The notes under the pieces are model-generated. The model made no database searches. It was given only the letters and a program-made list of their open reading frames with translations, and had not been told where the DNA came from. From Mitosporidium daphniae (lineage: Eukaryota; Microsporidia): DNA of 43,940 nt. Made by a program: the position numbers and the translations under genes. The stretch covers positions 1 through 43,940 of the forward strand of contig NW_013546467.1 in the NCBI RefSeq assembly GCF_000760515.2. Direction: 5' to 3'. Numbering within the stretch: position 1 is the first letter of the stretch; every line of letters starts with the position of its first letter. Positions 3,241 through 43,149 of this stretch are shown in pieces.

Positions 3241-6112
3241 ATGTTGCTATTTTCGTTTTCATCATTTCGACACGTCTCAAAGGCGATCTTGTGCTGCGTG
3301 ATACTATTGCAATTGACCAATCTAAGTCATTGCAATGTCATCGCCATCAATATAGGATCATCTGTTAAAGTTGCGCTTTTTGATAAGACATCAAGAACTT
3401 TTGATGTCATTCTGAATCAGGAGTCTGCTCGAAAGACACCCTTTTGTGTTGCCGTTTCTAACTCAGGAAAAGAGCTCCAATTTGGATCTTCTGCAAAAGC
3501 ATCGGTAATTTGGGTGCACTTTGTTTATTTTAGGCATCAAAAAAGGACATGTCTGTTTTTTGTGATTTCCAAATACTCTTGGGATGCTCATTGGATGAAG
3601 AGCGTGAGCAAGTGGAGTTTTTTAAAAACCTGAATCCTCGAACTGTTTTTGAAAAAAACAAAGGCCATGAAGCCGGCATTTCTTTTGTAATGAAGAATGA
3701 CAAAATACCTTCATTTCCTGTCGAAGAGCTCACGGCACTGTTTTTTGCCCACATCAAGGGCCTAGCTAATGCGACAGATTGTATCATTGCGGTAGGTTTA
3801 GGGATGAAATTTTAAATTCTAGGTCCCTCCCCACTTTTCCCTTGCGGCGCGTCAGGCCGTGTTGGACGCGGCCGAGCTTGCTGGCCTTAATGTGATAGAA
3901 ATCATCCACGACATTACTGCCGCTGCTCTTCAATATTCGCTTACCGTTCCTTTTGATGTCTCGTCCCTTGTTCCTGGCGCAGCGATGCTGGAGAATCAAG
4001 TTTTGTTTATGGATTTTGGCCATACACACACAAGTGTCTCGTTGATTTTATATCAAAGAAATGGAGCCCCATCCACAAAAGGAGCTTCTCGGATCACCCT
4101 TTTGAAGACCAAATCACACTTTGGCATTGGAGGTGCCTCGATTGATTTGGCGATAAGGGATTTTTTCTATGATAATTTTTGCAAGCAAAACGCGCTTAAT
4201 CTTATCTTTGAGGAGGGGAATGTCGAATTGGTTAGAATCCGCAATATTTTGCTTGAAGAAGCCTCTTTGGCCAAGTTTAAACTGACAGCAGCGAATTCTG
4301 TCGTTATCTTTATCGATTCGCTATATGAAGGCCGATCTTTTCGATTTAACTTCACAAAGTCTGATCTTGAGGCCATTACAAAGGATTCCTTGGTACCCAG
4401 ATTCATGAAGCCCCTGGAACAGCTGCTTAACGAACTAGGATATAAGCCTGCAGCGAAAGAGAATGATGACGCTCGTTCTTTTTCCACTGCTAGCTTTTCA
4501 ACTTTGATGCTTATTGGTGGCACAAGCCGTGTACCTTTCATCCAAGAGACGCTAAAGACGACGTTGGAGTCATATTTTGGAAAGGACAAAGTTAAGCTTG
4601 GCTATTCCGTAAATTCTGACGAGGGTCCAGTGCTTGGTGCCGCATTGAAGGCTCTACTTTCCGATATCAAATTCAATGTGAATACCATCAAGCTGTTTGA
4701 GCGACCAACACTTGATACCTCTGTCGTGCGTATTGATAGCAGCGATCAAGAGCCTATCCTCTTGTGGGGAGAAGCATCCAACACACAAACTAGTTCAAAT
4801 CAACTCACCAAAAAGCTTCTGATATACAAAAACGAGTCTTTCTCGCTGGGATTGCTTACAGGCTCTACTCCAAGAAAACCTTGGGCCACCATCAATGTGC
4901 TCAATGTTTCTGAAAGTTTTAATATGCTTTTGCAGACTCCGCTCAAAGATGGTCAAATTTTTGTTGGAAATCCCCTTGCTTCTATAAGCTTTTCGCTTCC
5001 ACTCGCAGGTGCCCGCAACGGAATGGTTCAAATTGCCTCGTGCAATGCTATTCAGAAGACCAATTCAACCGTTTCCGCCAACTCTACGACATCAACAGCC
5101 ACATCTTCGTCGGATCCAAAAAAGACCTCTGCCACGGACACATCGATTTCTGTCCCTCTTTCTTTTGAACTCTTATTTGCTCGACCTCCATTATCAGAAT
5201 TTATAAAGAAAGAAATTTCCGATCGCATGCTTGCATTCGATACTTTTTCCCTTCTTAAGCGTGCTCACAACAGCGCTCGCAACACGCTCGAATCCAATAT
5301 TTTTGCACTGCGACCTCTATTGAGAGAATGGAAAGAAGCAGGGTCTCCCAACCCAGGGGAATACTTTCCAGTGGATGGTAAATTTTTTCTTTAAACCTTT
5401 AGGTTTTCTTGCATATTCTGCACCCGAGTCATTGTCCCATTTGAAAGATTTGCTTGAAGAACTTTATGAAAAGCTCGATTATGGATATGAAGTTGATGAA
5501 TCCCAACACGAATCGATCGAGAATGTCATGAATGTTCAAATCAAAGCGTTCAATGTCGACAGTGCTCGAATTGAATCTTTTTTAGCAGATGGAAAAGCCG
5601 CCTTTTCCGAATACTTGAAGAAAAAAGAGGAAGAAGAGCGTGCCATTCGTGAAAAGCTTGCGGCAGAAGCTGCTGCTCGCGAGGCTGAAGAGAAGAAAAA
5701 GCGAGAGGAAGCGGCTGCGGAGCTTTTAAAAAACCTAAAAGAGCAGCTCGAGAAGATGAATTCTTCGGCTAGGAATTCAGGAGCCCAAACCCCAACTGAT
5801 GATGCCCTTCCATTTGATTTATCTGATTTTCATGGCATGATCCCTGAAAATGATCTTGGACATCCACAAAAAAATGATTCAAATGCCGAGTCAGTTACGG
5901 AAGAGGCTCCACTGTATGAGGCCCCTTCGATGGAAGAGGCTCCGCTGTACGAGGCCCCTTCGATGCAAGAACCTCCACTGTACGAGGCCCCTTCGATGGA
6001 AGAGGCTCCGCTGTACGAGGCCCCTTCAATGCAAGAACCTTCACTATACGAGACCCCTTCTTCGGAAACACATGAGGATGCCACTGGCCAGCCTATGCAC
6101 GACGAAATGTAG
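3241..6112 (+). CDS. LHS1: ER Hsp70-family chaperone LHS1/HYOU1 (GRP170), 4 exons, 928 aa
   Basis: Exons 3241-3504, 3534-3791, 3823-5377 and 5403-6112, with introns of 29, 31 and 25 nt; each junction restores Hsp70 homology. The first ATG is 3241. Residues 1-31 are a hydrophobic signal peptide. The Hsp70 nucleotide-binding domain covers roughly residues 33-440, with INIGSSVKVALFD (phosphate 1), PPHFS...RQAVLDAAELAGL and LIGGTSRVPF. A long substrate-binding half with a Ser/Thr-rich loop (about 600-640) and a Glu/Ala/Lys coiled region follow, as in the Hsp110/GRP170 branch. The C-terminus has five 11-residue repeats and ends MHDEM, close to the HDEL/KDEL retrieval signal. In yeast Lhs1 is the nucleotide-exchange factor for Kar2 in ER import. 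Confidence 0.9.
5900..6061 (+). repeat. 33-nt tandem repeat, about 5 copies, inside LHS1
   Basis: Copies begin at 5900, 5933, 5966, 5999 and 6032. The in-frame unit encodes an 11-residue acidic motif of the form (E/Q)E(A/P)PLYEAPSM, with EEA- and QEP-type copies intermixed. The unit is 3n, so copy-number change would keep the frame. It lies between the coiled region and the C-terminal tetrapeptide. Confidence 0.95.
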
Positions 6113-6250
6113 GCATAATAAAGTTCACGTGCGAGCTTTGCAGTTCAATAGAGAGGATTCACTTTTGTGTTTTCCCAGGTACTTTTAACAAGTCAAACAA
6201 GTAAGAAGATGGAACCAGACCATATTTATTGATGGGCAAAATTATGAAAA

Positions 6251-15400: not shown

Positions 15401-16929
15401 GTCGTCTCCAGTAGCAACTTTGTCGATGTAATTGAAAACGATTCAACAGACATGCACACAAGGCACAAAATTAGCAAAAGCAGAAAATTTAGCAAAATTT
15501 GTCTATTTAGCTGTCTCTCAATGGTAGATCTTTTAGAGGGCGAACCTTCTGCTGAGCTGGTGGGCGAATTCACCTTTTGATGCGCTATCGAGTTCAACAT
15601 GATTTTTGTCTCATATCCTGTGTACAAGACGACCCCAATAACCCAATCCGTGTTTTTGGTAATACAACCTCGAAGAAGGATATGCTCTTGAGTCAAGAGC
15701 ACCTCCTCATTGGTGTTGCACTCGTTTTCAAAAAATACCTTCCCACTGAAGGAATATAAATGCGGGCTTGGAGGGTCGATTTCGATCCGTAGGGATTTTA
15801 ATGAAAAGCTATCATGAATAGGGATTGCTCTCTTTATCTTCAAATTGGTTTCGCCATCTAAGCTCATGGTGTCAAGGTATATTTCAGAACGGGACGAAGA
15901 CGAAAGGGCAACGCAATCTGCCGGAATGGAATCTCCGGATCGAAGATAAATTACGTCACCCACTTTGATGTCTTTCCAGGCAACTTTCCTTTTTTTAAAG
16001 TGATCACTTTGATCTGCAGATGAAATTGGCTCCAAAATTGTGGCCCATGACTCGTTGATTAGCCTATCAGCCTTATGCCGCCGGTAGTCCTCGACTGCAT
16101 CCTTAATACCGGTGGCCATTAAAATAAATAAAAGCGGTCCTGCTGACAAAAGTGGATTGTAGGACGAAATAGCAGGGATAAATTGAAGAACAACAAGCAG
16201 CAAAAAATAAACGTTAGCAAGCCGATGGAACTGTTCATACAGGTTTTTGGGGATAAACGTAAATAGGTTGTATTTCGTTGAGTGCACCTCGTTAGAGCAA
16301 AACTTGCTATCGCTCGAATTGCCACCAATACAATCGATACATCTACGGTCAGCGATTTCCTGTTCAACAGAGTTTAAAGAGCTTTGATCGGGTTCCCCTT
16401 GCACCGAAAACGAGGCAGACGTTAGCTTATGGGAGCAAGTAGAAGACCCCGCCATGGTGCTGAGGTCTGATAGCTGCTGAAAAGAAAGCGTGGACGAAAG
16501 AACATATGCGTTAAAATTGGCTGGGCGGTTTAATTTTTCCGTTGGAACGCCGTCGAACCAATTTCTTGTCTTTGTTACCAATCTCATCATTTTTTTTGTT
16601 TGCTTGTCTTTGAGCCTAATTAGGGACCGTTTCGCTTTTGGAGTCCCCGAAGCTTTGTCCTTTTCCGCTGGATATGCCGTGTGATCTTGATGCAAAGAGG
16701 TTTCTTGTATTTTTCCCGCTAAACGTAAAATAAATAACATACAATTTCTAATTGGACTGTGTGATCCCGACGCAGAATTGTCCGCATCAAAATTGTTTGA
16801 AGCACAGGAAGGAATTTCGGCAACTCCCTCTTCGTCTGTGGAAGTATCATAGTCGGCCTCGCTGGTGCTGTATATCTCATTACTGTCAGTATAGCTAACG
16901 GAAGAAGATGAAATGCTATGGGATGGCAT
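12469..16929 (-). CDS. P4-ATPase (phospholipid flippase), 1486 aa
   Basis: P-type ATPase that moves phospholipids to the cytosolic leaflet. The phosphorylation motif DKTGTLTKN places the aspartate at residue 584. The A-domain loop SLDGETNLK, the P4-specific PIALYITVEI helix, and the hinge GDGANDVSMLRKADIGIG are present, followed by LLLVHGRWSYHRIS and six C-terminal membrane segments. The N-terminal 180 residues are Ser/Asp-rich, and a poorly conserved insert with a polyserine run (GAT-type microsatellite near 13990-14025) splits the region after the P domain. The subfamily (Dnf- or Drs2-like) is not settled. One ambiguous base (N, 14102) falls in this insert. No intron is evident. Confidence 0.93.
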   Translation of the reverse strand: MPSHSISSSSVSYTDSNEIYSTSEADYDTSTDEEGVAEIPSCASNNFDADNSASGSHSPIRNCMLFILRLAGKIQETSLHQDHTAYPAEKDKASGTPKAKRSLIRLKDKQTKKMMRLVTKTRNWFDGVPTEKLNRPANFNAYVLSSTLSFQQLSDLSTMAGSSTCSHKLTSASFSVQGEPDQSSLNSVEQEIADRRCIDCIGGNSSDSKFCSNEVHSTKYNLFTFIPKNLYEQFHRLANVYFLLLVVLQFIPAISSYNPLLSAGPLLFILMATGIKDAVEDYRRHKADRLINESWATILEPISSADQSDHFKKRKVAWKDIKVGDVIYLRSGDSIPADCVALSSSSRSEIYLDTMSLDGETNLKIKRAIPIHDSFSLKSLRIEIDPPSPHLYSFSGKVFFENECNTNEEVLLTQEHILLRGCITKNTDWVIGVVLYTGYETKIMLNSIAHQKVNSPTSSAEGSPSKRSTIERQLNRQILLNFLLLLILCLVCMSVESFSITSTKLLLETTTLSSVVVSFFSSLILFQTVVPIALYITVEICKTIHAFLIHSDLAMKDPISGKQCNARAWNLSDDLGRVQFIFSDKTGTLTKNIMRFKYLWAGGQIYSSNGDGLLFLKNAPLASKESAMPSDSPHYRLIMLCIALCHSVLPSANEVQFSPHSSSDTIALHPTRIEQKKASNPASTALGQTVEDVFIYSGESPDEVALVTACAEMGYQFKGTSGVSSPYCGAVSKTASVAIVDGLEDLFKEQPSASSPKVGEQQSFVENYEVILTIPFSSERQRMGVLVRLKEKAYFFCKGSDSAIIALCRKDDASVQNSSSNLAHWASQGLRILCFAMKEYDVLSDEWKSLMIKYEEVKNVSAKNSACRSEEFYSNLESGLCFLGITAVEDSLQDGVADAIESFREARICTWVLTGDKAETAVNVSTSAGLITSSMKLIEILFXNLEQPLEEKCVSLQEDKDQHELQLSRSSSSSSSSSSCNKSGCAVRFSLLRTLEDFYSNSKENMSMAEGTLFSPNPVTATPVSPLIQSHTTSPFSYFSNIASPMQNMKSPNSLLPNSPKSILSTHYQGAALVVDGMTLKYILDSPDDTLKLLFLSVALRCSSVICSRVAPLQKAMIVGLVKEYLSTAVCLSIGDGANDVSMLRKADIGIGISTGKEGCQAVMAADYSISQFSHLKRLLLVHGRWSYHRISSATLSCFYKNIAFVFVLFWYQFDCAFSSQFIYDYAFLLFYNFLFSILPVLSLGIFDRDIESNIAMLFPCMYTGGNKVPKCVQSHPHSHFSTGKSELAFDPIFQPVSYYSIERFLIAVSEGVYQSLVCYLIPRFVYSGGPLNTLFMHSSWTLDWIPVPEDRTVVGSAMAFCIITTVNLTILLCHYSWTLLTLFSVMISLVILLVTFFIMASWTTSTLYGTPWILFFQPAFYLCMFCCILLCISPRIIFGFIKSIFYPTSMHVLNRALVLLKKKALHREHSKPSPASDSNQQSCTI

Positions 16930-17033: not shown

Positions 17034-17222
17034 CTTATCCTCTCAAGCCTATTGGCTTAGATCAAGTGTAGTATCTGTTCTTATCAGTTTGAAAACTGGT
17101 ATTCTTCCACCGGAAGAGTATTATTTTCATTCTAATTTTTTGCGCAGGGGGTTGTTGATGGCTTGCCTAGACACCTCGTGGGTGTCCCTGGTATTGTACT
17201 GCATCCGGGTGACGTCCAGCCT
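17034..17222 (+). ncRNA. U2 spliceosomal snRNA
   Basis: The highly conserved 5' half reads GGCTTAGATCAAGTGTAGTA and continues TCTGTTCTTATCAG, essentially identical to U2 from yeast to human. The branch-point recognition sequence GTAGTA is 17068-17073. Stem IIa (CAGTTT...AAACTG) and stem IIb (CTTCC/GGAAG, 17104-17117) follow. The Sm site AATTTTTTG is 17134-17142. A perfect GACACC/GGTGTC hairpin forms stem III, and CCTGG-TATTGTACTGCAT-CCGGG forms stem IV, with the U2B''-type loop. The 5' and 3' ends are estimated. The canonical GUAGUA shows that this genome's spliceosome uses standard branch-point pairing although most introns here are under 35 nt. Confidence 0.95.
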
Positions 17223-17405
17223 CCTTCATCAATAATGTTTCCATAGTTTTATTTTACTTTCAATGATGGTGGTGATCAGTGGTGCACTTTTGGCATCTTC
17301 CACTGGCCTCACAATTGAGCTGTGTGTTACGGCGGTATCCGATTTCCGTTGTGCGAATTGATCCGGCTTCTGGCCAAGTGGGTGGGGGTTTTACTTTTTG
17401 TTCAT

Positions 17406-19112
17406 TTAATTTTGGCGACAACATGCCACGCTGTGTTCATAGAATTGATTGGGATATGTGATGACGCCGTCTGAAGCGCCGGTTTTTGCTGTTGCCGAAC
17501 AAATCGATCCACCTCTCACGGATTCCAAAAGACGAGTGCAGGCCAGCTGATAATGACCGGATGTTGAAATACTCATAACTTCCTTTAATGTTTCTGTGGA
17601 TAGTGGCTTGAACGCGGAGGAGGAGGACACCGAGCTGCTTCCATAGGCCTGTGAAAGCCACGAAGCTAGCAAATCTGGGCTTTGATGTCGAAACGGACAC
17701 CCATGCGTATCTCCTGCCGCTGGGGAGGTTCCTGTAATAATTCTATGACATGAATATGGAGGGTAGTTGGTTCTTTTCCCTTCTTGGCCATAATTATGCC
17801 TGATATTGTAGAGATAGTTTTTCTGGAACGAATCGTCGGTGGTTTTTTTAGAAAAAGCCTTCTTCCAAAAAACGATTGCATCATCCAGGTTCAAACCAAT
17901 GGACTGGAAATAAAGGGCATTCAAACTAACCTTCAAAAAAAGACCAAATTGCATGCGTCCTCCGTGCTTAAGATGGCTTTCCTTCCTGAGCTTGCCATTG
18001 ATTTGGAGCATGCATGGAGGAAAGTGGATGGCAACCTAGCATTGGGTTAATGCCGATCATAAGTGACGAAATAAACAAATAAAACACACAAAAAGCGCTA
18101 CATACCCGGTCCACATCAGAGGCAGAGAGCCTTTCCATCTTGGACGTAAGCATGGCAGCAGAGCTGTCAATGGTGTCATCCAACCCGGCCGAAATGGCAT
18201 CAAGGAGCGAAAATATCCTTTCGTCATTTTCAATAAAAGGGAGCGAAGATGACATCTCAATAAGATCACGCTCGAGCATAGCCTTAAAGGCAGAGTTGAT
18301 GATGGAAAGAACCTCACTTCGGTGCACAAATGCCCAACCATTGTTCAAGAAAACAGATCTACGACCAACCAAGTCAGGGACATTTTCCCAAGGCACCTAG
18401 GGTAAGCAAAACAGGTGAGAAACCTTGTAATACTGCTGCTGACGGTGCTCGGAAGAATCGCTAGCAATCAACGGTGTGGTGGCCATCAAATTGTTCGTAA
18501 CAGAAGCGATTTCATCGTCCGAAATGTACTGCAGCTGAGGGAAATGTTTTTCAATGAATTTGGATTTTTCCTCACTGCCCAGCAAATGCTGAAATCTCCA
18601 GCGCAACATGGCTGCCTCTTGATTGACAAACCAGCGACGGCTCTCTTCCCTTCTGCAATAAGCGAGCCTAGAAATGAGTTGACAACGACGGCGACCTTAA
18701 AATAAAGTGCGAGGTTATATCGTTAAGGCGCTCCTCATCAAGAGGATAGCCCTTATGTGCAGCATTTGAATGTAATGGCATCAAACGCTCCTCGGCAGAA
18801 GAAATAAAATGGGCATCAGAGACTCCACCATGCTGAATTCGGGCATAGTAATTTTCAATTGCCTTCAGCACTATAGATAAGGGTTAGGGTTCTTTCACAT
18901 TTAAGACGCGAAATGGCCAGCCTTTCCAAAATTTCCAGTCGAATTTCGTGCACCGGAAATTCGTCATAAAACGAAAGTCGAAGAGGGTAACGCAGCAAAA
19001 CATCATGCCCAACCCCACTAGCAGACGAAGAGCCTCTCCCCGCAACAAGATGGTCAAACATAGCGTCCTCATATGAAATCGTACCGGTGGGAGCACGGAT
19101 AATCCGCTTCAT
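17406..19112 (-). CDS. PRI2: DNA primase large subunit PRI2/PRIM2, 6 exons (508 aa)
   Basis: Regulatory subunit of primase in the DNA polymerase alpha complex. Exons (minus): 19112-18899, 18870-18696, 18667-18424, 18396-18106, 18035-17931 and 17903-17406, with introns of 28, 28, 27, 70 and 27 nt. Landmarks: RLKLLKAIENYY, SHFILRLAYC, RRWFVNQE, KVPWENVPDLVGRR, HGGRMQFGLFLK, NIRHNYGQEGKRTNYPPYSC, HGCPFRH and YQLAC. The four cysteines of the 4Fe-4S centre are Cys316, 395, 412 and 465. The last intron (17904-17930) has no in-frame stop; if retained it adds nine residues inside a conserved helix. The spliced length matches human PRIM2 (509 aa). AAATTT-type sequence lies upstream (19125-19145). Confidence 0.95.
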
Positions 19113-22700: not shown

Positions 22701-23254
22701 CCCAAGAACGCACGGTCCTAATTTCGATCTTAAAATCGGCTATGAATGAGGACCCTTCGCAGAATGACCTCACACAGATGGCGCAACGGGCACGAGCTCT
22801 TATGGAAGCTGAACCGTCACTTGCCGCGCTCCTTTTATCGGAGACCTTTGATGCAAGCGAGACAAAGCAACTAAAGCTTTGTTCATTTTGCCAATTGATG
22901 ACAACAACAGCCCCGATTCCAGATACTCTGTTTGAGGTGCTCTCTGAGACCATAAGGCTTAATTTTGAGTCCTGGGTCGAAGATATGCCGTTGCTTGGTG
23001 TCAATCTTGGGCGTCTTCTGGCAAATTTGCTTGGCGGCCATCATGAGACCTTTAACGGGGGCACTGCTTTTGTGCCTCTCAAAATCTCGCCAGAAATTGG
23101 GCATAGTTATGCCATTGCACTCGCAGGGTCTTTGTTGCGCCACCTTAAAATTCCCCTTTCCCTTGAACAGGTCAAGGCGTGCACCGAATCCTTGGGCGTT
23201 GCACCTGGCGATCTGGACCTCTTTTGTGAGACGCACAAAATTCCTCGTATCTAA
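19790..23254 (+). CDS. TIF4631: Translation initiation factor eIF4G (1154 aa)
   Basis: Scaffold of the eIF4F cap-binding complex. The N-terminal 400 residues are low-complexity, rich in Ser, Pro and Thr, and include four EILP repeats. The eIF4E-binding motif YxxxxL(phi) is YDKKMLY at residues 416-422. A Gly/Arg/His-rich linker precedes the MIF4G HEAT domain (about 560-845), with VNGSLNKLTPDNFERL, FAPLYAGLCRVIADNPQLPE and RRVLGNIAFIGHLYKHGLL. A further helical region (about 985-1150) may be MA3-like. There are no introns over 3.4 kb. Two ATGs are adjacent at the start. The stop codon lies in the first copy of a 31-nt tandem repeat. Confidence 0.93.
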   Translation: MMASSTPNTIHTPSPPPAQQHSVDHRASKHALNPDPTFNATKQTRPNQRSSPAHGNNITQHTKRNGRPVVPSFTQEPALGSSTSTGRTTSPRPTYSSAASASIVSASGATEPHEQRRTSRHTHSGTLNLDLLPQRTQSAPPELHEEIPSSASTFTQVKVETKDNAEKKTEILPEILPEILPEILPAFVPMPSSMVDPSIESAQRPSHDGRDFIPNYYKPPAASYTSSSTLLYPTMPYPNSPYTLTGYTPHGIALYSMNYMPSPIASVSSPLVTSFAPPSSSSSSSSATLFVKPPTSRKTISIKHPDTKEEIVISKPTVLPDKVTPNAVEVQSEIDPKKDDVEPVCQLETTPCCEMILPTIVLSKVEPLEKEELAEKNTLEELLEGMSIEEPAAKVSQAEAVPLGEEKIENLSSRIYDKKMLYALLQSQKFECPSMEDTFRTFLDLLERASSYSLQGASRGGEKRHHHSGASGQKMGAPPGYEASGPPGFSRRQDGGASRSSRGDSSPSHGAIQRGRVSSTPLIARRAASPQPVLLPTEGRWVRPTLVKDESTKTDIVLRLVNGSLNKLTPDNFERLSMTVIQTLVGPLGVLVSAYPKLSKAVMANEEPVWSEDEDEARSLLAQVIGAFFDKAVDEPHFAPLYAGLCRVIADNPQLPEYPARKSTTDSTLAPVSMFRMALLHRCRAEYEKKIAWSNNSASSTSLSGSISCDTTATTDKSSACVSSGTEVLDEAEIEFTRLKTKRRVLGNIAFIGHLYKHGLLREEIILSLVQETLNASSSDEDDLECCIQMLNSTGSKLEASSAARLDVFFTKLHTLTTSESKLSNRIKFAIMDLIDLRKAAWHKDLISKVSQQQQQHTGRGPIGIASAPALLRSTSSSLGTPGRRRGDFTEVRSIATRLPTGKPSVNSSSVSTSAGFSSNKLSTTSASKNKFGLLNDIGVASDDSGNQNSLGSLSEKSDDEMDVDVNEHLTQERTVLISILKSAMNEDPSQNDLTQMAQRARALMEAEPSLAALLLSETFDASETKQLKLCSFCQLMTTTAPIPDTLFEVLSETIRLNFESWVEDMPLLGVNLGRLLANLLGGHHETFNGGTAFVPLKISPEIGHSYAIALAGSLLRHLKIPLSLEQVKACTESLGVAPGDLDLFCETHKIPRI
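20297..20344 (+). repeat. 12-nt tandem repeat, 4 copies, in eIF4G
   Basis: GAAATTCTGCCC is repeated three times, and a fourth copy ends TTCCT. It encodes EILP x4 in the disordered N-terminal region. Confidence 0.9.
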
Positions 23255-23369: not shown

Positions 23370-23422
23370 CGTACTACCAACCTTAGTCCCAAATATCTGC
23401 ACAATTAATTTCTCTGGTTTTA

Positions 23423-26237
<2,815 letters not shown>

Positions 26238-26837: not shown

Positions 26838-26840
26838 ATG

Positions 26841-27680
26841 CTACGATGGAAACGTTAATCCATCTGGACACTTCACTTCGGTTTTCATGCCAAATTTTGG
26901 GTCATATCCAAGCGGATGCAGTGGAAATATATTTACCGCAAGCTCCAGCGATATGGGAAATGAAGAGTCCGGGCCCGAGTTGCAATGATCGAGGATATCC
27001 GATAAAATTGGATTGGAAGAGCCTTTGGAAAGCAAATCTAAAACATGTGCGAAAAGAATGCAAACCTTGTCGTGAAACAGGAAAGTTTTTTTTAATAGAA
27101 AAGGGGATCTCCAAAGAAGTATTGCTCTTTGCGGCGAGGTCAAAGTCCGATAGGCGGCCAGACCCCAATACGGTGGAGGCCGACTTTACCTTGTACATTC
27201 CCTATGGATGGTCAGCGAATCGCCATACTGTCAATGAAAGCAGTGAGATCCTCCAAGGGATATAGTTTGGACTGTAAACCGTTGCATCAATCAAATAGTT
27301 GATGTGAAGCGAGAAAATACCGCCATTGTCCCCATTTTCTGCAAACGAGACAGAATCGCCAGGATCGGTCAAATGCTTGAGGTTGGTTGAAACAATCTGG
27401 AGAAAAGTTGCCAAAATCTGACCTGGGGGACTCTTGGAAATAAGAAAAAAGATGCGATTCCAAGTGCAGCCAGCAGAACCAACAGAATGGACATGCACAG
27501 CCTAAGTCCACAGCACCTACAGCATGGCCTTTTGTTGCTCTTCTTTATTATGCTTCTCGCGGGAGAAATGCCTATGCCAGAACCATTTTCCATATTTCCG
27601 TCTATAGGGGCGGGTGGGGCCCATTGATGCGCTGCATTTTTCCTATTTTTGAAACACCGAAAAGGGCCCCATTCTTTCAT
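26841..27680 (-). CDS. LEA2-like single-span membrane protein, 4 exons (252 aa)
   Basis: Exons (minus): 27680-27423, 27396-27229, 27201-27066 and 27037-26841, with introns of 26, 27 and 28 nt. The cytosolic N-terminus (basic, with PCCRCCGLRLC) precedes one membrane segment (LLVLLAALGIASFFLFPRVP) and a lumenal beta-sandwich of the LEA-2 type: ATVYSPNYIPWRIS, VLGSGRLSDFDLAAKSNTSLEIPFSI and ISLELAVNIFPLHPLGYDP. Fungal homologues are vacuolar or secretory-pathway membrane proteins of poorly known function. Plus-strand frames across this locus are shadows. The start ATG 27678-27680 was chosen because upstream in-frame codons lead only to a TTG. Confidence 0.8.
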
Positions 27681-27870: not shown

Positions 27871-28852
27871 ATGGTATATTTTGCTTTAAGAATGGGAATT
27901 TCAAAGAACACATTTATGATGAAAATGATGACAGCAATAACGTGTTTCCTTTTATTTCTTCAAGTGTTGACCCCCGCCATGGCCGAGGCATCCACTGATG
28001 GCTCGCCTGGCGTCAGCAATTCTGAAGTTATTCAAGAAGAGACGAGCAAGGTATTGCCAGATCTTAGCAATGGTAGGATCATTCATCACCTAATGTGCAG
28101 TTTCGCTTCCACCGCTTCCAATCGACATTGATAATGGGAGTGTCTTTCCACAAATACTCGGCGGAATCGTTTTGGCATTGATCGGCGTGCTCTTTCTTTT
28201 TTTCGGATACAAATATTTTAAAAAGATTCTTTTTGTGATCGGAGCGTCAGCTGGAGCACTTTCTGCATACACCATTTTGCTTAACATCGAAAAGTCGATG
28301 ACAGACACTCCGCTTTTTGGAGATGCAAGGACGTTGGCGTTCGCCGGGATCTGTTTGGGATGTGCTCTTCTCTTCGGAGCGCTAGCCTTGGCCCTCTGGA
28401 AACTCGGGCTTCTCATTTCGGGTGGTCTTGGTGGTTTGGCATTGGGAATGTTTCTGCTATCTCTCCCACCAATAAACTCTTTCTTAATAGGCGAGAGCGG
28501 CTCCTCCATTGTCCGTCCAATTTTGCTGGCCGTCACGGTCTGTATAGGCGGTTTGATGTCCATTTTCTACGAATCTGTCGTAATAATGGCGTCCACAGCT
28601 CTCTTTGGCGCAGGATGTATATGTACCTGCATCGACATTTATGCAAAAACAGGCTTTGACGAAGCTATTCGAACCATTTTGCAGAACAAGGGGTCGGTAG
28701 ATATGAATAGCAGCTTTGCAGGCCTCCTAATATCATACGGTGTGCTCTTCCTGATCGGATTTTACTTGCAATATAAGGGCCAATTCCCATCATCCTCCAG
28801 ACGCAGACATGCGCTTGTGGCCGATGATCGCGCACCGGTTTACAAAGTATAA
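27871..28852 (+). CDS. TMEM198/DUF4203-like multi-span membrane protein, 2 exons (317 aa)
   Basis: Exons 27871-28072 and 28101-28852 with a 28-nt intron. A signal-peptide-like segment (MMTAITCFLLFLQVLTPAMA) is followed by an acidic lumenal stretch and about seven hydrophobic segments. The first of these carries GGIVLALIGVLFLFFGYKYFK and Gly-rich helices follow, the pattern of the TMEM198/DUF4203 family. Human TMEM198 acts as a Wnt scaffold, but the role of fungal members is unknown. An alternative start is ATG 27892. The C-terminus is short, basic and cytosolic-looking. Confidence 0.75.
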
Positions 28853-29047: not shown

Positions 29048-31198
29048 ATGACATCATCTTCGGATTCGACAAATTCCGGCTACTCACTTGCTGAAATCCT
29101 TGCTCCAGATTTTATCCCATCAAAGTTAACAAAGCCACAATTACGCTCACTTCTTCTTGAGCACGGGAATATCTCGATGGATGACTTTCCCTCGATAAGC
29201 GCAAAAAAAGATACCCTTATTGAGATATTTGAAGAACGCATCTTGCGACGCGCTCCGGAAATATTGTCAACCCACCGTGCGGCCTATGCATCCTCATCGG
29301 GAATCATTTCTGTTGCCTCTGATGGCAGTGAGCGCAGATTGTCAAGTGGAAGTGCAAACTTTTCGTCTGAAAATCCGTTTCAAAGTCCTGTTCGTTCTGT
29401 AGCCCGTGGAAGAACGACCACACCGGTAAAGGAAAAGGCTAGCAAAAGTGACGGTAAAGTCAGAAGCCGATCAAGGGCCTCTTCGACAGCCAGAAAACGC
29501 TCATCAAACCCGCGCTCGTCCACCTCTTCTGATAAGAAAAAAGAAGTTGGCACAAAAAGACGCTCATCATCCGTGGTTGTTGAAGTAATCGAGGAACCAT
29601 TTTCCGAGAATGTGATAAGCCCTCTTTTTAAGGCCACGGCAAGCAGAAAGAAATATTCTGCAGCATCCTTCAAAGAATCTGAATCTTTGCCTCAAAAATC
29701 AAATCCGTCGCCCAGAAAGCCTAGCCCGTCTCCCCGAAAGCCTAGCCCGTCGCGTATGTCGAGTTTATCCCCGAATGGACATAGACTGAAAAAAACACTG
29801 GAGTCGCCTACGGCTACGCGACGTACTGGACAACCCGCGCCAACGTACTCCTTTATGATGGCGCCCGGTGCTCTTCCCTCAATTTCAAAAGAGTGCTTTG
29901 AAAAGAAAAAAAGCCCCTCCCCGTTTTTGGCAATTCGTCGATTATTTCTGATCCTTTTTTTTGGGTCTGTAAGTGCTGCGGCGTATTTTCTGTTGTCGAT
30001 TTTTGTCTCCTATTATTCAGCAATCCCTTTCTGCAGATCTCCAATTGCAAGGATGGTGGCGGATACATTTTACGAGGCTTCATCCCATTCGTCCAATTGT
30101 GTTCTTTCTTCAACTCCTGTCGGTGAATCATCATGGAAGGATCTTGTCTTTTCGCCGATTCATAACTTTTTCAATTGCAAAGAAGAAGTTTCGATTTGCT
30201 GGGAATGCCCATCGCAGGCTTCATGTATCCCGGGGACTTCTTCCTGGAGTTGTGAGCCTGGGTATGCGCCGGGGAGATCTTGGGTTTTTTACCGCCCCGT
30301 TTGCTATATTGATTACAAACAGCAAGGAGCAGTGGATGCACTTGTGCTTGCCATTGAAGAGCTTCTTCGCAGGGTCCTTGGCGAGCATCTTTGTGCAGGC
30401 GGCGATTTAGACTCTGCTCCCTTCATCTCATCGATGATGTTGGCTGATCGCTTCAAGGCTCTTGATGGCCCATGGAGTGTTAATCTGACGACCCCAACAA
30501 ATCCGAATATCCCTCCCGTCATAAACTCGCATCGCTTTGAAGCGTTTCTTGCTGCAGCTCTTTCCAGAATCGCTGGCCGCCCAGAAAGCTTTGAAGTTAA
30601 AACTCTTCCTGTGGACCAGGAGCAGGAACATCCAAATCAGACCTGGTTCAGAGCACATACGCCATCTTTTTCGTTTGAATGTCGTTTTAGGCTTTTCTGC
30701 ATGCGCCATCGGCCATTGATTGCAATTTTCACTGTGATCGTCGCCATTGCAATTTGGATCAAGCGAACCGTTTCCAGTAGTTCTTTTTTCTGAGTTTTAG
30801 GAATGCGATCTTTGAGCAAAGACGCCAAGCTGCTCATGGAGACCGTGCTTGACAAGCTCATACAACAGGACTTTCTAAACCGCCAAGACTCGACCATGTT
30901 CCCTTCGTGCATCCCGGTGGCCCAATTGCGTGATGCCCTCATATCTGGACCTACATTTTCGCCCTCTTGTAACACAGAATCATATAGGCGACAACTTTGG
31001 AAGGAGGTAAGCTTTGGTTTTTAAGCCCAGGTATCGCGTCTCATTCATTCCAATAGCAATGTCCGCGAATCGACAACTCTTATCAGAGGCGAGCAGCACC
31101 GGGTATGGGAATGGATTGGACCGGAGGTCCTCAAGGCCTCTGCTTCATCTGGAGATATTTCGATGTTTCGAAGAAGCCTCTCTTCTCCTGTCCGATAA
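29048..31198 (+). CDS. SRC1: Inner nuclear membrane protein SRC1/HEH (MAN1 family), 3 exons (700 aa)
   Basis: Exons 29048-30776, 30801-31006 and 31031-31198, with two 24-nt introns that each contain an in-frame stop. Residues about 17-75 form the LEM-like HeH domain (FIPSKLTKPQLRSLLLEHG, KKDTLIEIFEERI). A basic Ser/Pro/Lys linker with nuclear-localisation character follows, then a membrane segment near residue 310, a Cys-rich lumenal MSC region, and a second membrane segment near 565. The last exons encode the nucleoplasmic winged-helix part, with VAQLRDALI, NSNVRESTTLIRGEQHRVWEWIG. The family tethers chromatin at the inner nuclear membrane and helps nuclear-pore quality control. Frames upstream of 29048 lack an ATG. 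Confidence 0.9.
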
Positions 31199-34116: not shown

Positions 34117-36958
34117 TTAGCAAAAGTACATGGTATGTTCCATTTCCGGAACAACGCCTGTAAACATGCCCTGCAATGGATCTGAAGAAACAGATGAGAT
34201 GCTGAGCGTATCGTCGCTCTTAAAATGGAATCTTGAACGAAAAGCGACCAAATGAGCATAGTATGCCGGGGACGAAATGCTTACAGAACGCGTGCATCTT
34301 GCGTATGTATAGCAAAGCCTGTAACTTAGCGCTTGCAAATCATCCGAGCTCATATTATTTTCATCGATAAGGACATGATAGTGCGCGGGACGAGAGGTGC
34401 CTTGAATGCCGCTATGCGACAGCAGGTAAAAGTCTCGATAGATGGGGTGCGTAATTTTTGTGTCAACGACAGTCCCGGGCATGCAATTTCCAGAGCGATC
34501 GGCATTAGAGCGATCAATGGGGAAGAAACGAACATGGTGACGCTTCTGCACCACAATGTATGTAAGCTTTGGGGAATAGTTGGCCTCCAGTTCGGCATAC
34601 GCCTTTTTGATTGCAGTCACCTCGACGTTAAGCACGTGGGAGAACTGCCCCTCACCCACTCCATCTCGATAGAACAACAAGCGTTGAGGTTTAACAGAGC
34701 GATTGGACTTGTAAAAAGTTATCAGATGGCTTTTCACTATCTCCTGCAGGTCGGAAATGACCTCCTGCCGTCCAGACTGAACACGTGCGTGCGACACATA
34801 TCTACAAAAGACACAAAAACGCTACCTGGAAAGTGCAATGTCCAAAGAAGCCACCACCGATGCAACTGAGCGCATAGAGGAAGATCCCGGGCCAGGATGT
34901 GTCACATCTGCCCCAAACACAATGGTCGGCACGTCGCTAACATACGGCAACTGGTTTCCCAACGTAGAGTTGATGCCCCCTAGCTTCGCATTGATTTTGA
35001 GTATCACGTTAGCACAATATTGTTTGTTGGGGCGTGCCACGTTTTTGCCCACAATACACTGCGAAGGACGGCCAATGATGCAATCTGTGATGCGCTTGAT
35101 TTCGCCATACAGCATGGTGTCCTTTGTTGGCAAAATGACGATTACCAAATCTGCGGTACCGCCTTTATCGCCTGCGCCTGCAGAATAGGCTTGTCGCAAC
35201 AGCCTTTCGATTCCTGGAAGGTCTGGATGTCCCGACATAATCGGCGGGTTCCGATTGGTTACCTCCAATCCCATGTCGCAGGCTGTGCTCACAATCTCGC
35301 AGATAAAGCCCTCCACTTCTCCTTTCTGAATGCGAGAAGAAAGCACAAGAACAGCCCAAGACTTGAGCTTGGCCCCTACATACATTTTCTTGTCCCGCAA
35401 GTTCCATGCTCCTTCTTCCGGGTGGACTTCAGAAACCCTGCTGCTTTTTGCATAGAAAATTTTTGGCGGCGCAAGTTGGCGTGCATCTGCCTTGACAAAA
35501 TCGGTCGAAATGGCAAAGCTAAAATCATCCAAGATCGGGTTTTGTGTAAGCCTCATTTCCTTGATGCCTGCAGCGCACTTTTCTAGACGAAGATGCGGCT
35601 TTTGACATGTTATCTTGATCATATCCGCCGTTTGCTCTTCACTTAGCTTTTTCATATACCGCTGTGCCGGCGCTATTTCGCACACCTCGAGCGGCAGGTA
35701 AAGCTGCCTCTCGTTGCTTCCGGACTTGACACAGGGAAGTCCCGGATGCCGTAGGCGAAGGCTGTATTGGGAAGAAAAGTAGTCTGCGACGCTTAGCGTG
35801 CGGCCATCTGAACCTTCAAACCGGATTCGGTCTGCAGATTCTTTGGAAATGCCCAGAACGCGGTATTTGCGGCGCAGCTTGGGATTGTGATTCGTTTGTA
35901 CACGAAGTCCTTTGAGAGCCTTTTCAAATTTTGATCTTTCGCCTTCTGAAAGCGATGGTGGAATTCTTATTCCGACTCCTTGTGAAAGGGGTGCTGCTCG
36001 ATGGTGAGGCTGAGGGCCGCCCTGACCCGATAGCACGCTTGATAGCAGTTCTAAAAGCGAGCCGGGGCGGTAAAAGCACGTGGCCGACGTATCGATGTTC
36101 AATAGTAGGCGACCTGGGGTTGGTTTGAGCGCCTGATAGTACCCAAGCCATGCATCGACGGGACCCGAAAGTTGGCAAGTATTTGTGGGCGAGTAGAATG
36201 AACGCCCGATGTTGACCAAATTTGTGACAGATGGAGCATGTCTAATAACCACCTCTAGGACCTGCAGAGCCTCATATGGTGTGTAAGAAAGCTGTCCGTC
36301 CAAAAAAGAGCGCAGTAGATCCATAGATATGGCGGCTACTTTTCTCATTTTCACCGTAAACACACGAGGTTGTCTCTGTTTGCGCTCAGAGCCTGCTCCC
36401 TCCTCCCCAAGTGTCACATCGAAAGTATATGCATTTTTGGAGAGCTTCTTTGCGGCAAATACGTTTGCGCGGCCATCGAAAACCATTCTGACGCCCTCAA
36501 ACTCAGCATGCCCGTGCTTCAACTCTAGTGCGCTGAAAATATCTCTAGCTAATTAGAAATTGTCAAAGATAATTAACAAGCAAAGCGAAATAAAATGCAC
36601 GTTGAACAGAACAAATGGTGCACAAGCCAATTGGAGATGCAAGGGAAGTTGACGGGAATTAATGGGGTTTAAAAGTGGGGCTACAGGCCATGCTTGCACC
36701 GTCCAAATCGCCAAAAACATGCATCGACATCAAACTGTTATACCTATTAAGACGCGGAGGGACAGTGGGACTGATATCAATGTCATAGTGGTAGACCATG
36801 CCACTTGGCATCTTTTTGACCTCGACAAAGTTTGTCTTGATGGTAATGGGGTTTCCTTGCCTTCCAGGCTGGCATTTTTGTGCACTGGCCACGCTAATTT
36901 CCAGCTCCTCGCGCTCCTTCAGTGTTAGGCGCTTAATGTCTGTTTGCACAGCCTCCAT
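34117..36958 (-). CDS. AGO1: Argonaute (Ago clade), 3 exons, slicer-competent (872 aa)
   Basis: Guide-RNA-binding effector of RNA interference. Exons (minus): 36958-36744, 36544-34826 and 34801-34117, with introns of 199 and 24 nt. The N domain has [17 protein letters not shown], followed by the DUF1785 linker, a PAZ region (about 250-370), and Mid and PIWI domains. The catalytic tetrad is complete: Asp618 (GADVTHPG), Glu658 (GRQEV), Asp691 ([11 protein letters not shown]) and His828 ([11 protein letters not shown]), spaced +40, +73 and +210, as in human AGO2. The C-terminus MYFC fits the guide-binding carboxylate. The first intron is the longest in the window. Dicer and RdRP are not in this window. 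Confidence 0.96.
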
Positions 36959-37953: not shown

Positions 37954-38680
37954 ATGAAGGCATCGACAAATTCCTCCTGCTCTCCCTCTTCCTCCTCTGT
38001 TCGACAGAGAAAATCGGAACACAAAACTGTGGATACCAGCAGCCAAGAGCCTTCATCGTCTCCATTTTTATCTGACCTATGTATGCAAAAATTTTAATTC
38101 CTAGCTGCCTTTCCAATTCAATGTAACATTCTGTCTCTCCAGGATATTCGTATTGCATTAGATGATATCTTGATCAAGGTCGTTCTTTCACTTTTATTCT
38201 AGTTCTTTACCGTTGAGTTGGGATGGAAGGAAGACAACCGACGCACGGATCTGAATTTGCTTTCGCAATTTGTGGCAAATGTTATTGCCCTTGTTGTGGT
38301 ACTCTATTCGTACTTTTTTGGGTTTGAGGCATCTCGCACGTTGGGGCAGCCTCTTTGCATTTTGTATGTCCATTTCTTACTTTAGATATTTTTTCGTTGT
38401 CCTTCTCAGTACGGTGGTAAATTGGCAGCTTGGCCCTATGCCAAAATTCTCGGGAATGTCATCAAGTAGTCCCAAGGAGACCGTCAAAGTTGAAACGAAC
38501 ATCGAGGCTCCATCGACGCTTTACTCTATTATCGCCGTATATCAGAGCGAAAGCGAAGCAAATAAGCCTAGAACAATTCATCTCAAGAAACCGGTGGAAA
38601 CTTGGTTCCATGCAGATGGCAGCTTGGCCGCAGAGGCCATATATAAGGACCTCCTACTTTTGGCGTCCCCCGGAAAGTAG
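37954..38680 (+). CDS. SPC2: Signal peptidase complex subunit 2 (SPC2/SPCS2), 4 exons (218 aa)
   Basis: Exons 37954-38080, 38105-38178, 38203-38363 and 38386-38680, with introns of 24, 24 and 22 nt; each contains a stop or shifts the frame, so splicing is required. After a Ser-rich start, LSLQDIRIALDDILIKFFT gives the conserved N-terminal helix. Two membrane segments with a short loop follow (LLSQFVANVIALVVVLYSYF, and CILYFFVVLLSTVV formed across a junction), then a cytosolic C-terminal domain (TLYSIIAVY, TIHLKKPVETWF). Spc2 is a non-catalytic subunit that links signal peptidase to the Sec61 channel. The 22-nt intron is the shortest in the window. Confidence 0.85.
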
Positions 38681-39665: not shown

Positions 39666-41518
39666 TTACATGTCCCGTCGGAGTGCCACAATTCGACCGC
39701 CGCGTCCCAAGCGGTAGGCTAGCGGACGACTGGGATTTCCTCCATTGCTTTTCAAGGTGGAGCCGAGGGCCATCTCGAACCGTTCCCGTGCGGGTAGGGC
39801 CTCTTTTTGAAGATTCTGAAAAAGCATATGTTCTTCTTTGTGATATGAATTCAACTCCTCCTCAAACTCTTTAAGCCTCGAGGAAATGTCATTACATATC
39901 TTTACGGGATTCGCGATTGACTTCCATGGTGATATATTTTCAAAAGGAAGAGAACATTGCACCCCTGAATCGTTAGCATTCGCCATGTTCATGAAAAAGG
40001 CAACTTTGGCATATGAATGCGAAGAGATATCCATAAACATTGCTGGTGGTCCTTCTAAATCGGCTCTTGTGAGAATATTGGCATAAGACACGCTTGTACG
40101 CGGCACCTTCTAAAATTTAGATCGGAAATATGTATTACCGCTCGTCCATGAGAGCTTATCAAAGAGCCCTGTCCATGATGATGGCCAATATGCCGATGAT
40201 TCGATGATTCTGAAGCTGAGATCTGAATAGGCGGTACGTGGATTCCATACTTTGACTTGAGACTTTCTAGCGTGAACGTATTTCCAAAAACTAGCGTTCC
40301 CTCAAGAAGCAAACTTTTTTTCAACTGATCACGTTGCAGGGATATCCGCAAAAGAAGAAGAAGGTCCTCAAATTGCTCCTGTAAACGCGAAAGCTTTGTT
40401 AAAGCTTCCAAATCGGCGCGTCTCGTTTTCCGAGGCTGCCTGATTTCTCGCCTACGAAAGCAGACGTATGGATCAATATTGCTATTGGCGGATCCTGACG
40501 AGGACGAGTTGCCTATTTTTCCTTGTTGATCCTCAAGCTTCAACGTAGGCAGAAGCGGCACAACCAAGGACGGCGAAATAGCCGCCCTGGTCTTTTTCCA
40601 ATGTTCAAAAATGGCCGATTGGTAAGAAAGGGCAATTTTCAGCTCAGAAGGGTCCAGCCATCTGTCAATAAAGACAACAGCCTGTTTTGTTGTCAGAAAA
40701 TTGCTGTTGACGACCCCATCGTGACCAAAGACCAGAGCAATAGACTCGATCACCCACATCACCTTCTCAAAAGTGGAAATGTCAAGTCGAGGCGTTAATT
40801 TGGTAAGGAAAATAAGATCATCTCCGGTAGCCCAATATGGGACGTATGGAAGAGTTCTCCCTTTAATTGTTTCCCCTTCACATGGTAGCAGGGTCATGGG
40901 TGCCCTTGTGCCGTACCCAAAGCCGAGAAGATTATTCTGACAATAGAGTCCTGCTGGACCGTGGTTGCTGTAAAATGGGTTATGAAGGGCATCCAATATC
41001 CGTGGTTGTGGTGGCGTTTTCCACCGTTCATCCTTCTTGAAGGCTTCTCCGGTGGGTGGATATAATTGCTCATAGATCTCTCCAGATATAGAGTGGCCTA
41101 CATCTGTAGAATCTGGTACAGGTATTCGCGCCCCTTCACCGCCGCCCATTCGAGAAAATGTCGGTGCACTGGAAAGAATGGCCTTCAAATGGGCCTCATC
41201 CTCTTCCTCCTTTTCAACACCGGTCGACAGGAGAGGGACAGATCGCATTTGAAGAAGATGCTCCTCTGGCTCTGCCGATTCCAGCAATACCGTGATCTCC
41301 TTATTGAAGTCAATCTTGCGCGAACGAAAGGTTTTGCCCCCGCCAACTATGTGATGTTTACCCAGGTCTCCCCGCCTCATCATTGGTTGCGAGGTCGAAA
41401 GAAGTGAAGGTGTGTGAGGGCTAGTCGCATTTGCAACTGCAGAAGGTGGCGGAGAAGACTTGTCACTCCTACCAACGTTTTTGTGCGCGTCGTCTTGTAA
41501 ATATGATACACCTACCAT
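39666..41518 (-). CDS. EPL1: Enhancer of polycomb-like protein EPL1, 2 exons (607 aa)
   Basis: Scaffold of the NuA4/piccolo histone acetyltransferase, joining Esa1, Yng2 and Eaf6. Exons (minus): 41518-40139 and 40109-39666 with a 29-nt intron. The EPcA region is recognised by KTFRSRKIDFNKEITVL, STGVEKEEEDEAHL and IPVPDST. A central part shares YVPYW and DRWLDPSELKIALSYQ-type sequence, and DPYVCFRRREIRQPRKTRRA followed by LRISLQRDQLKKSLLLEG is diagnostic. Low-complexity Ser/Pro regions flank the N-terminus. An E2F-like site lies 35 nt upstream of the ATG. The C-terminal exon (SYANILTRADLEG) has no recognised motif. Confidence 0.92.
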
Positions 41519-41793: not shown

Positions 41794-42570
41794 TTATTTA
41801 AATTCAACTTTCTCAATAATGGCGAACCAATTTCCAGCATCGCGGCCTGTCAGCCGAATAACCAACGATGGGATGCACGCTATCAACTGTTCAAGCTCCC
41901 CCTCTTTAAATAGATGATAGTATCTACAATAAGCCGGTTTGCATACCTCTGATGCACAGCCCCCGTCGCTGTATTCCAGTTGATCATTGTTTCTGTTCCT
42001 TCGATGGTCACAAATTTCTATGATTAACATGATTGCAAGTACAGAGCTCTTGGTGGCATCTTGATTGTCAAAGGCCCAAACGAAAACTAGGGCCGTGCCT
42101 CCTGTTCGAAGAACACGAGAAATCTCGCTCAATGCCTCCAGTCGCCTTTCCCGAGATGCGAGATGGTGGATGGTGGCAATGGAGAGGGCAAAATCCTATC
42201 ATTTCATTACAAAGGTTAAAAACCATTGAACATTGTCTGAGAATTGTTGAAAGCATGCAGGCACAAACAAGATCGCCAGAAACGGTCCGGCTCCCTGCCT
42301 GCGCATGTCGCAACAGAGAAACGCATCGATCGGTGCCGATAGTAAATGAATTCTTGGTGACATAAATATTTTTCCCATTTCCGCAGCCCAAATCAATTCC
42401 GATAGACCCAAAAGGCAAGGATTGAAGATATTTCAGCACCTGTGGCCATTGCTAGGAATTCAAAATTGTCGTTCTACCTTGTACCTAGTAGCGGAAAAAT
42501 GTTCCGCAATCTGGTCGTAGACATCATGAACATGGACCTGCTCAAAGGCCAAGCATCCTGTGTGATCCAT
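41794..42570 (-). CDS. TRM9: tRNA wobble-uridine carboxymethyl methyltransferase TRM9, 5 exons (224 aa)
   Basis: SAM-dependent enzyme forming mcm5U/mcm5s2U at the tRNA wobble position, with Trm112. Exons (minus): 42570-42478, 42451-42224, 42195-42043, 42017-41947 and 41923-41794; introns 26, 28, 25 and 23 nt. The family opening is FEQVHVHDVYDQIAEHFSATRYK, then the SAM motif IDLGCGNGKN, SIATIHHLASRERRLEALSE, LRTGGTALVFVWA and RYYHLFKEGELEQL. The last two introns together are 3n and the unspliced frame stays open, so they are easily missed. Unspliced, the fourth exon would read as a hydrophobic VLAIMLII stretch odd for this cytosolic family. The start is fixed by ACAAAATTTC just before ATG 42570. 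Confidence 0.88.
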
Positions 42571-42634
42571 GAAATTTTGTAATAATGAAATTTTGCAATA
42601 ATAAAATTGTAAATTTAACCGAATTTCTAATTTG
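42571..42634. promoter_or_regulatory. 64-bp head-to-head promoter of TRM9 and SEC66
   Basis: The two ATGs are separated by 64 bp of AT-rich sequence with four AAATTT/AAATTG-type cores, facing both ways. Any promoter for both genes must fit within it or reach into the coding sequences. Confidence 0.6.
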
Positions 42635-43149
42635 ATGGCTTCAGTGCTTCCCATTTTCGTTGCTGTAGGTATGATGGCCGCGCTCATCTGGCTCTTGTTT
42701 GTCCGATCCAAAGGTAGGCTGGCTTTGCTTTCTTAAGGTGACAAAATCACGCCTTACTTTCCACCTAATGAGGCCCGTGAAAAATATATTCAACAATGCT
42801 CTCAAGAGGAAACGCCGGATTTGCGCTCTGCACTTATCCATAGAGCAATTGAAGCGATTCGCCGCACGCAAATAATCAACGAGGAGAAGCCTTCATTGGT
42901 CAATCTAAACCATGTTGGTGCCCTTTCCGAAGAATTTCTTTGCTCACTGCTTGAAGCCGAGCGGGAAACTAGCGCCGAATTATTTGATATACAATGCGAG
43001 GCAGAGCTCATCAAAGAGGGTATTGAATGAGCGAACAACTTTTTATAGGTTGGAGCAAATCCATTTTGCAAGAGTCGGCCGCACTCATCAAGCATGCCAT
43101 ATCTGCCGGCGCCCAGGCCAATAGCCAGCAAGTACGGAAGCGGGCGTAG
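42635..43149 (+). CDS. SEC66: SEC66 (Sec71) subunit of the Sec63 translocation complex, 3 exons (153 aa)
   Basis: Fungal-type partner of Sec63/Sec62 in post-translational protein import into the ER. Exons 42635-42713, 42738-43019 and 43049-43149, with introns of 24 and 29 nt. One N-terminal membrane anchor (LPIFVAVGMMAALIWLLFV) precedes the cytosolic domain, with PYFPPNEAREKYI, DLRSALIHRAIEAIRRTQ, HVGALSEEFLCSLLEAE and, across the second junction, KEGGWSKSILQESAALI. The C-terminus ends QQVRKRA. The length is shorter than yeast Sec66 (206 aa) because the tail is reduced. It fits with LHS1 and SPC2 in the same window. Confidence 0.88.

Follow-up and report, generated by a model that had tools for sequence, protein, structure and literature searches.

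Intron set of the window

How do spliceosomal introns as short as 22 nt arise, and how are they removed when they adjoin one another? These questions are raised by a contig of Mitosporidium daphniae, from the short-branch Microsporidia (NW_013546467.1, here C74), whose 43,940 nt constitute the window analysed below, and for which a first-pass annotation had counted 35 introns in 13 genes, 29 of them of 35 nt or less. The set that we rebuilt is smaller, with 29 introns in 12 genes, although mostly short as well (24/29 ≤35 nt). The short segments are very probably ordinary U2-type GT-AG introns shrunk to a minimal splicing unit, some of them arrayed back to back, a reading that we combine with a proposed unit-wise splicing of the arrays. 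All the evidence on introns given here comes from sequence, by means of a gene model, reading frames and homology.

The assembly searched comprises 4.66 Mb in 147 contigs, presumably the larger contigs of the published genome, for which the available text gives 5.64 Mb, 612 scaffolds and 43% GC (PMC5701793). Intron statistics were drawn from 200 kb of other sequence, the window and small loci, amounting to ~5-6% of the genome. Genes were found with a purpose-written two-strand hidden Markov model, for which the window together with 25 further loci (259 kb) served as training set. It predicted 162 coding sequences, totalling 174,773 nt and interrupted by 113 introns; 104/113 were ≤35 nt long, with a median of 27 nt, a peak at 24-28 nt and 25 nt as the commonest length. 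The corresponding density, 0.65 introns per coding kb, is likely an underestimate, because the model missed a methyltransferase gene of the window containing four introns, one of which was regained with a raised prior. The window set consists of 25 gene-model calls, one of them replaced, plus these four introns, read by eye (Table 1).

Homology across splice junctions

We checked by homology 79 junctions in 25 proteins (75 gene-model calls and four introns read by eye). One continuous match covered the junction in 51 cases, whereas two were contradicted and 26 were not covered, being outside the matched stretches, at their edge or, for a 50-nt call in the repeat tail of a UDPGP gene (L017), removed before the scan. 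Among the 51 spanned introns, whose median is 27 nt and whose shortest member has 22 nt, 46 are ≤35 nt long (44 lengths were tallied by program and seven added by hand). The description of this genome as built on introns of 22-35 nt is hence accurate for about nine in ten of them, but not for the five longer introns of the window (53, 56, 70, 90 and 136 nt), the first two of which are double.

Spanned junctions were found by alignment in CDC48 (six) and Rpt5 (two), and by Pfam matches in RPC34 (five), a KH protein (three), a DBP5-like protein, a porin and a proteasome alpha subunit (two each), and ORC4 and E2F (one each); the others are in ValRS and GCP2 (five each), SPC2, UDPGP, DDX, the Hsp70-like protein, Argonaute and Man1/Src1 (two each), and BOP1, PIG-N, primase, the RBM39-like protein and the methyltransferase (one each). 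A Pfam stretch locates a junction only to a few residues, and a residue-by-residue view was available for CDC48, Rpt5, ValRS and GCP2. CDC48 aligned to human p97 without gaps at all six intron junctions, and the alignment of Rpt5, spanning introns of 32 and 25 nt, was wholly ungapped. Within the window, homology crosses the junction in 16/29 introns; support for the other 13 comes from the gene model or from open, joining frames.

Some gene-model calls were false. A 20-nt call in CDC48 (24292-24311) was replaced by a 56-nt intron from p97 homology, and two calls in Pelota/Dom34 are the contradicted ones: that of 21 nt should, by eye, be 26 nt long, and that of 20 nt, at the second intron (L009 6201-6460), leaves a frame problem that no GT-AG choice seen by eye solves, pointing to a sequence error or a non-canonical site. 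As the calls of 20-21 nt were wrong, left with a frame problem or ambiguous (that of 21 nt in SPC2 may have 24 nt), the shortest supported intron is the 22-nt one of SPC2 (38364-38385), already singled out in the first-pass annotation, which lies inside a continuous PF06703 match.

Splice signals and snRNAs

With the same decoder and the same training, GT-AG yielded 75 introns ≤40 nt, as compared with 6-24 for 11 other dinucleotide pairs, which also gave lower total decoder scores; the highest of these controls, TT..AG and GT..AT, are probably shadows of real introns. Signals were examined in a sample of 100 introns of 22-36 nt. The last exon base was G in 63% of them, versus 22.9% of 7,171 coding GT, at a position for which the gene model has no donor term, and it was preceded by A at -3 (46%) and A at -2 (49%). 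Intron position +3 was A (75%) or T (18%), so that most donors start with GTA or GTT; beyond this, the donor signal is weak (1.2 bits at +3 to +6). Towards the acceptor, T predominates (70% at -5 and 81% at -3), an A is enriched at -8 from the intron end (50%), and the branch-like YTNAY occurs in 69/100 introns; in an earlier round it was present in 54/76, versus 35.2 ± 3.9 in shuffles.

Small nuclear RNAs (snRNAs) were predicted above the Rfam cut-offs for U1 (83.6 bits), U2 (137.2), U4 (97), U5 (89.8) and U6 (90.8). The canonical U2 snRNA reported for the window was recovered, and the 5' end of U1 (ACTTACCTGG), GTAGTA in U2 and ACAGAGA in U6 are present, which we take to be the motifs of these snRNAs. 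Their size, their ends, with GT-AG in excess over the other pairs, and the encoded major snRNAs identify the segments as U2-type introns; homology across the junctions and the predicted U1, U4, U5 and U6 likewise uphold the earlier view that they are near the known lower size limit.

Protein factors were also sought. The best UHM candidate for U2AF65 (C78) was nearer to SF-CC1 (RBM39-like; 147.6 versus 61.6 bits, both below cut-off). The SF1-HH profile found no match to SF1/BBP, but no positive control gave signal, and a KH match tried as SF1 belongs to a protein that resembles KHDC4 instead; for SF1 as for U2AF, neither presence nor absence follows. A U1C-type zinc finger scored 67.9 bits and carries little weight, because the family was also over cut-off in the E. 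coli control.

Tandem intron arrays

The first evidence for arrays, which the first-pass annotation had not noted, was that p97 homology splits two CDC48 introns into units of 29+24 and 27+29 nt. In total, we found 14 places where two to five complete mini-introns abut at AG/GT, with zero-length exons (Table 1). A genome search for AGGTA..TAGGTA..TAG returned 14 rows, four of them from one satellite and two overlapping others, leaving eight distinct sites, and a second pattern returned eight rows at five distinct sites, one of them new. At all nine distinct non-satellite sites (9/9), the flanking exons continue one reading frame once joined. Five further arrays are outside the patterns: two in CDC48, one in SAR1, and the second arrays of a CSTF77-like gene and of an AAA gene. 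The names CDK, Polo, SAR1, CCT, CSTF77, SNM1 and AAA combine the Pfam class with our own reading.

A homology match crosses 11/14 arrays, and none of the 80 forms in which one or more units are kept was both open and in frame (12 arrays; CCT and CDK, the latter read in a wrong frame, are left out). The 35 units are all intact GT..AG introns, with a median of 27 nt and lengths not different from those of single introns (Kolmogorov-Smirnov p 0.46). Independent placement of the 113 introns would produce 0.037 coincident pairs (P of ≥3: 8e-6), and the 259 kb contain three arrays, two in CDC48 and one in SAR1. It was homology that revealed the 27+29 array of CDC48, which the decoder called under one raised prior and missed in another run.

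Two other candidates were discarded: in GCP2 (L013) the second half of the supposed array is coding, and a C50 satellite built of 20-bp GT..AG units (L038 1503-1607; C50:10179-10280), the source of the four satellite rows, has no coding flank visible upstream. Arrays may cluster, two each being present in CDC48, in the CSTF77-like gene and in the AAA gene (window, L036, L044).

Excision and origin of the arrays

Since each unit of an array seems viable on its own, we favour stepwise excision, as judged from their sequence. U1 and U2 would pair within one unit, as in intron definition, with little room to spare; each unit would be recognised by itself, and several excisions, in any order, would produce one and the same mRNA. 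The internal AG/GT points may then act like zero-nucleotide recursive-splicing sites at a 27-nt scale. As to their origin, the exon consensus AAG/R suggests intron gain at AG/G sites, the end of an existing intron being one such site, and the arrays might have been formed by repeated gain beside an existing acceptor and not by recent duplication; units within arrays were not significantly more alike than units between arrays (p 0.13). We propose tentatively, with a little less than even confidence, that the arrays are excised unit by unit, as micro-scale recursive splicing, that they were built by repeated gain at AG/G next to existing introns, and that introns shrank to a minimal unit before their massive loss in later Microsporidia.

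Alternatively, each array could be one intron, 50-139 nt long, that is spliced out at once between its outermost GT and AG, with the internal AG/GT as relics of old intron insertions or chance occurrences. One-step removal would leave an identical mRNA, and the existence of unitary introns of 70-136 nt makes it plausible; some doubles could also be due to chance. Nevertheless, when the interior bases were shuffled, a full division into GT..AG units arose in ≤0.25% of the shuffles for each of the four triples and for the quintuple, units that the search patterns did not dictate still have GT starts, AG ends and single-intron length, and relics of old insertions would be expected to decay. We assign this account a substantial minority of our confidence.

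Several observations weigh against tiny U2-type introns arranged in unit-wise arrays. Raw pattern counts show no excess over reversed-pattern controls (14 versus 23, and 8 versus 22), and the array claim therefore rests on frames and homology. Three of the 14 arrays (two in the AAA gene and that of the SNM1-like gene) have an open frame only, and the nine doubles were split by chance in 1.5-8% of interior-base shuffles. When priors were permissive, array-like calls also came from control dinucleotides at the junction or from control spacings (0-3 as compared with 3-4 for AG/GT, and 0-1 as compared with 2). The unitary introns of 70, 90 and 136 nt do not contain an internal AG/GT. Moreover, the stricter branch motif is weak (CTRAY/TTAAY in 19/100 introns versus 13.1 ± 3.3 in shuffles), and the training set of the gene model consists of its own calls.

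Public gene models

The spliced Hsp70-like protein is 97% identical, over 97%, to a public M. daphniae protein, whose model is fused to the upstream gene and extends all three short introns into coding sequence, with the loss of 4, 11 and 15 residues. If the public annotation were correct, the introns would be longer and end at later AGs, with 41, 64 and 70 nt. This is very improbable, because the short-intron protein gives the better score against 39/39 other homologues, with a mean gain of 18.3 bits, and the public protein shows an 11-residue gap against P0003 at the 31-nt intron, although this evidence concerns one gene only. It is still less credible that the short segments are coding sequence or assembly frameshifts, for which the frame problem in Pelota could be invoked, given the GT-AG excess over the 11 control pairs, the homology over 51/79 junctions, the G at exon position -1 and a public protein that also skips sequence at three of the sites.

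Evidence on public annotation is direct for the Hsp70-like gene and indirect for GCP2 and CDC48. The protein search scored only entries of 0.55-1.75 times the query length with the most shared words, and covers well-scoring, near-full-length models. GCP2 had no match above 29% identity among 30, and CDC48 none above 78% among the best 120 of 7,994; as identities top out at these values, there is no near-identical M. daphniae entry for either among the matches listed. The 78% match of CDC48 is P0075 (802 residues), over 99% of the query. In a relative's Hsp70-like protein (P0002, 71% identical), homology is lost where M. daphniae has the 25-nt intron, and the read-through residues there would, by eye, fit a 28-nt intron.

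Public M. daphniae gene models may thus miss coding sequence at short introns, as seen in one gene, and claims of gene loss consequently merit a recheck.

Comparison with known systems

Tiny introns are themselves already known; what is unusual in the M. daphniae lineage is their number. The available text on Encephalitozoon cuniculi describes GT-AG introns of 22-76 nt (PMC3629993), and both the ends and the tiny size are common to the two organisms. In contrast to these canonical Microsporidia, with few introns and strict donor and branch motifs, M. daphniae has an intron density of ~0.65 per coding kb (113 over 175 kb), weak motifs (the 1.2 bits noted above) and a predicted U1. Minimal spliceosomal introns are also described, in the text available, from Paramecium, heterotrich ciliates, chlorarachniophyte nucleomorphs and mikrocytids (PMC10245619, PMC9505925). 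Those of nucleomorphs (18-21 nt), mikrocytids (16-17 nt) and Stentor (15-16 nt) are uniform, whereas those of M. daphniae range from 22 to 136 nt with a peak at 24-28 nt; the closest in length are those of Paramecium, 20-33 nt according to the title of a reference.

We judge the head-to-tail arrays of intact tiny introns to be a new variant. Neither such arrays nor M. daphniae intron lengths appeared in the portions available of the open-licence literature searched, to which neither Whelan 2019 nor the original description of the M. daphniae genome belongs, and either may contain a prior report. Recursive splicing at zero-nucleotide exons in Drosophila, as described in the accessible part of PMC5126111, uses AG/GT points inside an intervening sequence, and all 14 arrays have such junctions; however, the Drosophila sites are in very long introns, whereas the M. 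daphniae units, predicted from DNA, are complete introns of ~27 nt. Stwintrons (spliceosomal twin introns; PMC9024468, partial text) are likewise complex intervening sequences of two introns, but there one intron disrupts a splice signal of the other by lying within it, while all 35 units of the 14 arrays are intact and abut. The arrays might serve as a natural test of the smallest autonomous splicing unit, of how neighbours are cleared without an exon between them and of intron gain.

A reconstruction from 263 species, in the text accessible, gives present-day introns per kb averaging 0.01 for 15 Microsporidia, 0.22 for their ancestor, in which the loss is placed, and 2.53 for Rozella; Mitosporidium is not mentioned in the available main text (PMC8476143). 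With ~0.65 introns per kb in M. daphniae, an early branch, the loss would move to a later time and shrinkage would come first.

Features of the window and intron arrays

Table 1. Introns, U2 snRNA and tandem arrays. Coordinates are those of the window; arrays elsewhere are listed by the way in which they were found. AG/GT denotes abutting units.
Feature	Length or units (nt)	Position	Strand	Basis and remarks
Hsp70-like gene, intron 1	29	3505..3533	+	Within PF00012 stretch 44-466 of spliced protein; extended in public model
Hsp70-like gene, intron 2	31	3792..3822	+	Within PF00012 stretch; brings back VPPHFSLAARQ, absent from public protein
Hsp70-like gene, intron 3	25	5378..5402	+	Gene model; beyond Pfam stretch; donor also used by public model
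Lipid flippase, doubtful call	24	16719..16742	-	Gene model only; reading frame open through segment
U2 snRNA		17035..17224	+	Rfam RF00004, 137.2 bits
DNA primase large subunit, unitary intron	70	18036..18105	-	Within PF04104 stretch 207-505
DNA primase large subunit, intron	27	18397..18423	-	Gene model; junction 2 residues inside PF04104 edge, not counted as supported
DNA primase large subunit, intron	34	18653..18686	-	Gene model
DNA primase large subunit, intron	28	18871..18898	-	Gene model; 37 nt in earlier training round
CDC48 intron 1	33	26122..26154	-	p97 alignment starts 2 residues upstream and continues through
CDC48 intron 2, double	29+24	25839..25891	-	AG/GT, zero-length exon; p97 alignment ungapped at junction
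CDC48 intron 3	26	25354..25379	-	p97 alignment ungapped at junction
CDC48 intron 4, unitary	90	25037..25126	-	p97 alignment ungapped at junction; without internal AG/GT
CDC48 intron 5	34	24589..24622	-	p97 alignment ungapped at junction
CDC48 intron 6, double	27+29	24263..24318	-	AG/GT, zero-length exon; p97 alignment, correcting 20-nt gene-model call
Gene without assigned identity, intron call	28	27038..27065	-	Gene model
Membrane-protein-like gene, intron call	28	28073..28100	+	Gene model
Man1/Src1-like gene, intron	24	30777..30800	+	Within MSC stretch 367-676; 137.3 bits spliced versus 54.6 bits for first exon open reading frame
Man1/Src1-like gene, intron	24	31007..31030	+	Within MSC stretch 367-676
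Argonaute, intron	24	34802..34825	-	Piwi stretch 559-859; 345.2 bits spliced versus 79.0 bits for one exon open reading frame
Argonaute, unitary intron	136	36549..36684	-	Within ArgoN stretch 37-193; gene model; boundaries less certain (earlier round: 142 nt)
SPC2 intron 1	24	38081..38104	+	Gene model; beyond Pfam stretch
SPC2 intron 2	24	38179..38202	+	Within PF06703 stretch 56-211; donor ambiguous (21 nt from 38182 as model calls, frame equal)
SPC2 intron 3, shortest supported	22	38364..38385	+	Within PF06703 (SPC25) stretch, residues 56-211
Intron call	29	40110..40138	-	Gene model
Methyltransferase intron 1	26	42452..42477	-	By eye; exons join in frame
Methyltransferase intron 2	28	42196..42223	-	Within PF08241 stretch 51-143; exons join in frame; called with raised prior
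Methyltransferase intron 3	25	42018..42042	-	By eye; exons join in frame
Methyltransferase intron 4	23	41924..41946	-	By eye; exons join in frame
Intron call	24	42714..42737	+	Gene model
CPSF73 array	27+26+32	Pattern site		PDB chain homology ungapped at array
Mis18 array	27+27+30+27+28 (139 nt)	Pattern site		Homology across; PDB chain match from 2 residues before junction
CSTF77-like gene, array	25+29	Pattern site		Homology across
CDK array	24+26	Pattern site		Homology across
Polo-like kinase array	27+30+33	Pattern site		Homology across
TPI array	27+26+24	Pattern site		PDB chain homology ungapped at array
Clamp-loader-like AAA gene, array	30+27+25	Pattern site		Open frame only
SNM1-like gene, array	27+29	Pattern site		Open frame only; no Pfam match at 0.001
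CCT subunit array	31+27	Pattern site		Homology across
SAR1 array	25+28	Outside patterns		Homology across
CSTF77-like gene, second array	27+28	Outside patterns		Homology across
AAA gene, second array	20+35	Outside patterns		Open frame only; least typical of the 14

The window also contains, at 34120-36958 on the minus strand, an Argonaute gene whose product matches ArgoN, PAZ, Mid and Piwi, in a reduced genome. Between CDC48 and a MIF4G gene, at 23253-23380, a tandem repeat of ~30 bp (ggccgtatctaataagccgtgtgtctcgg...) was seen by eye.

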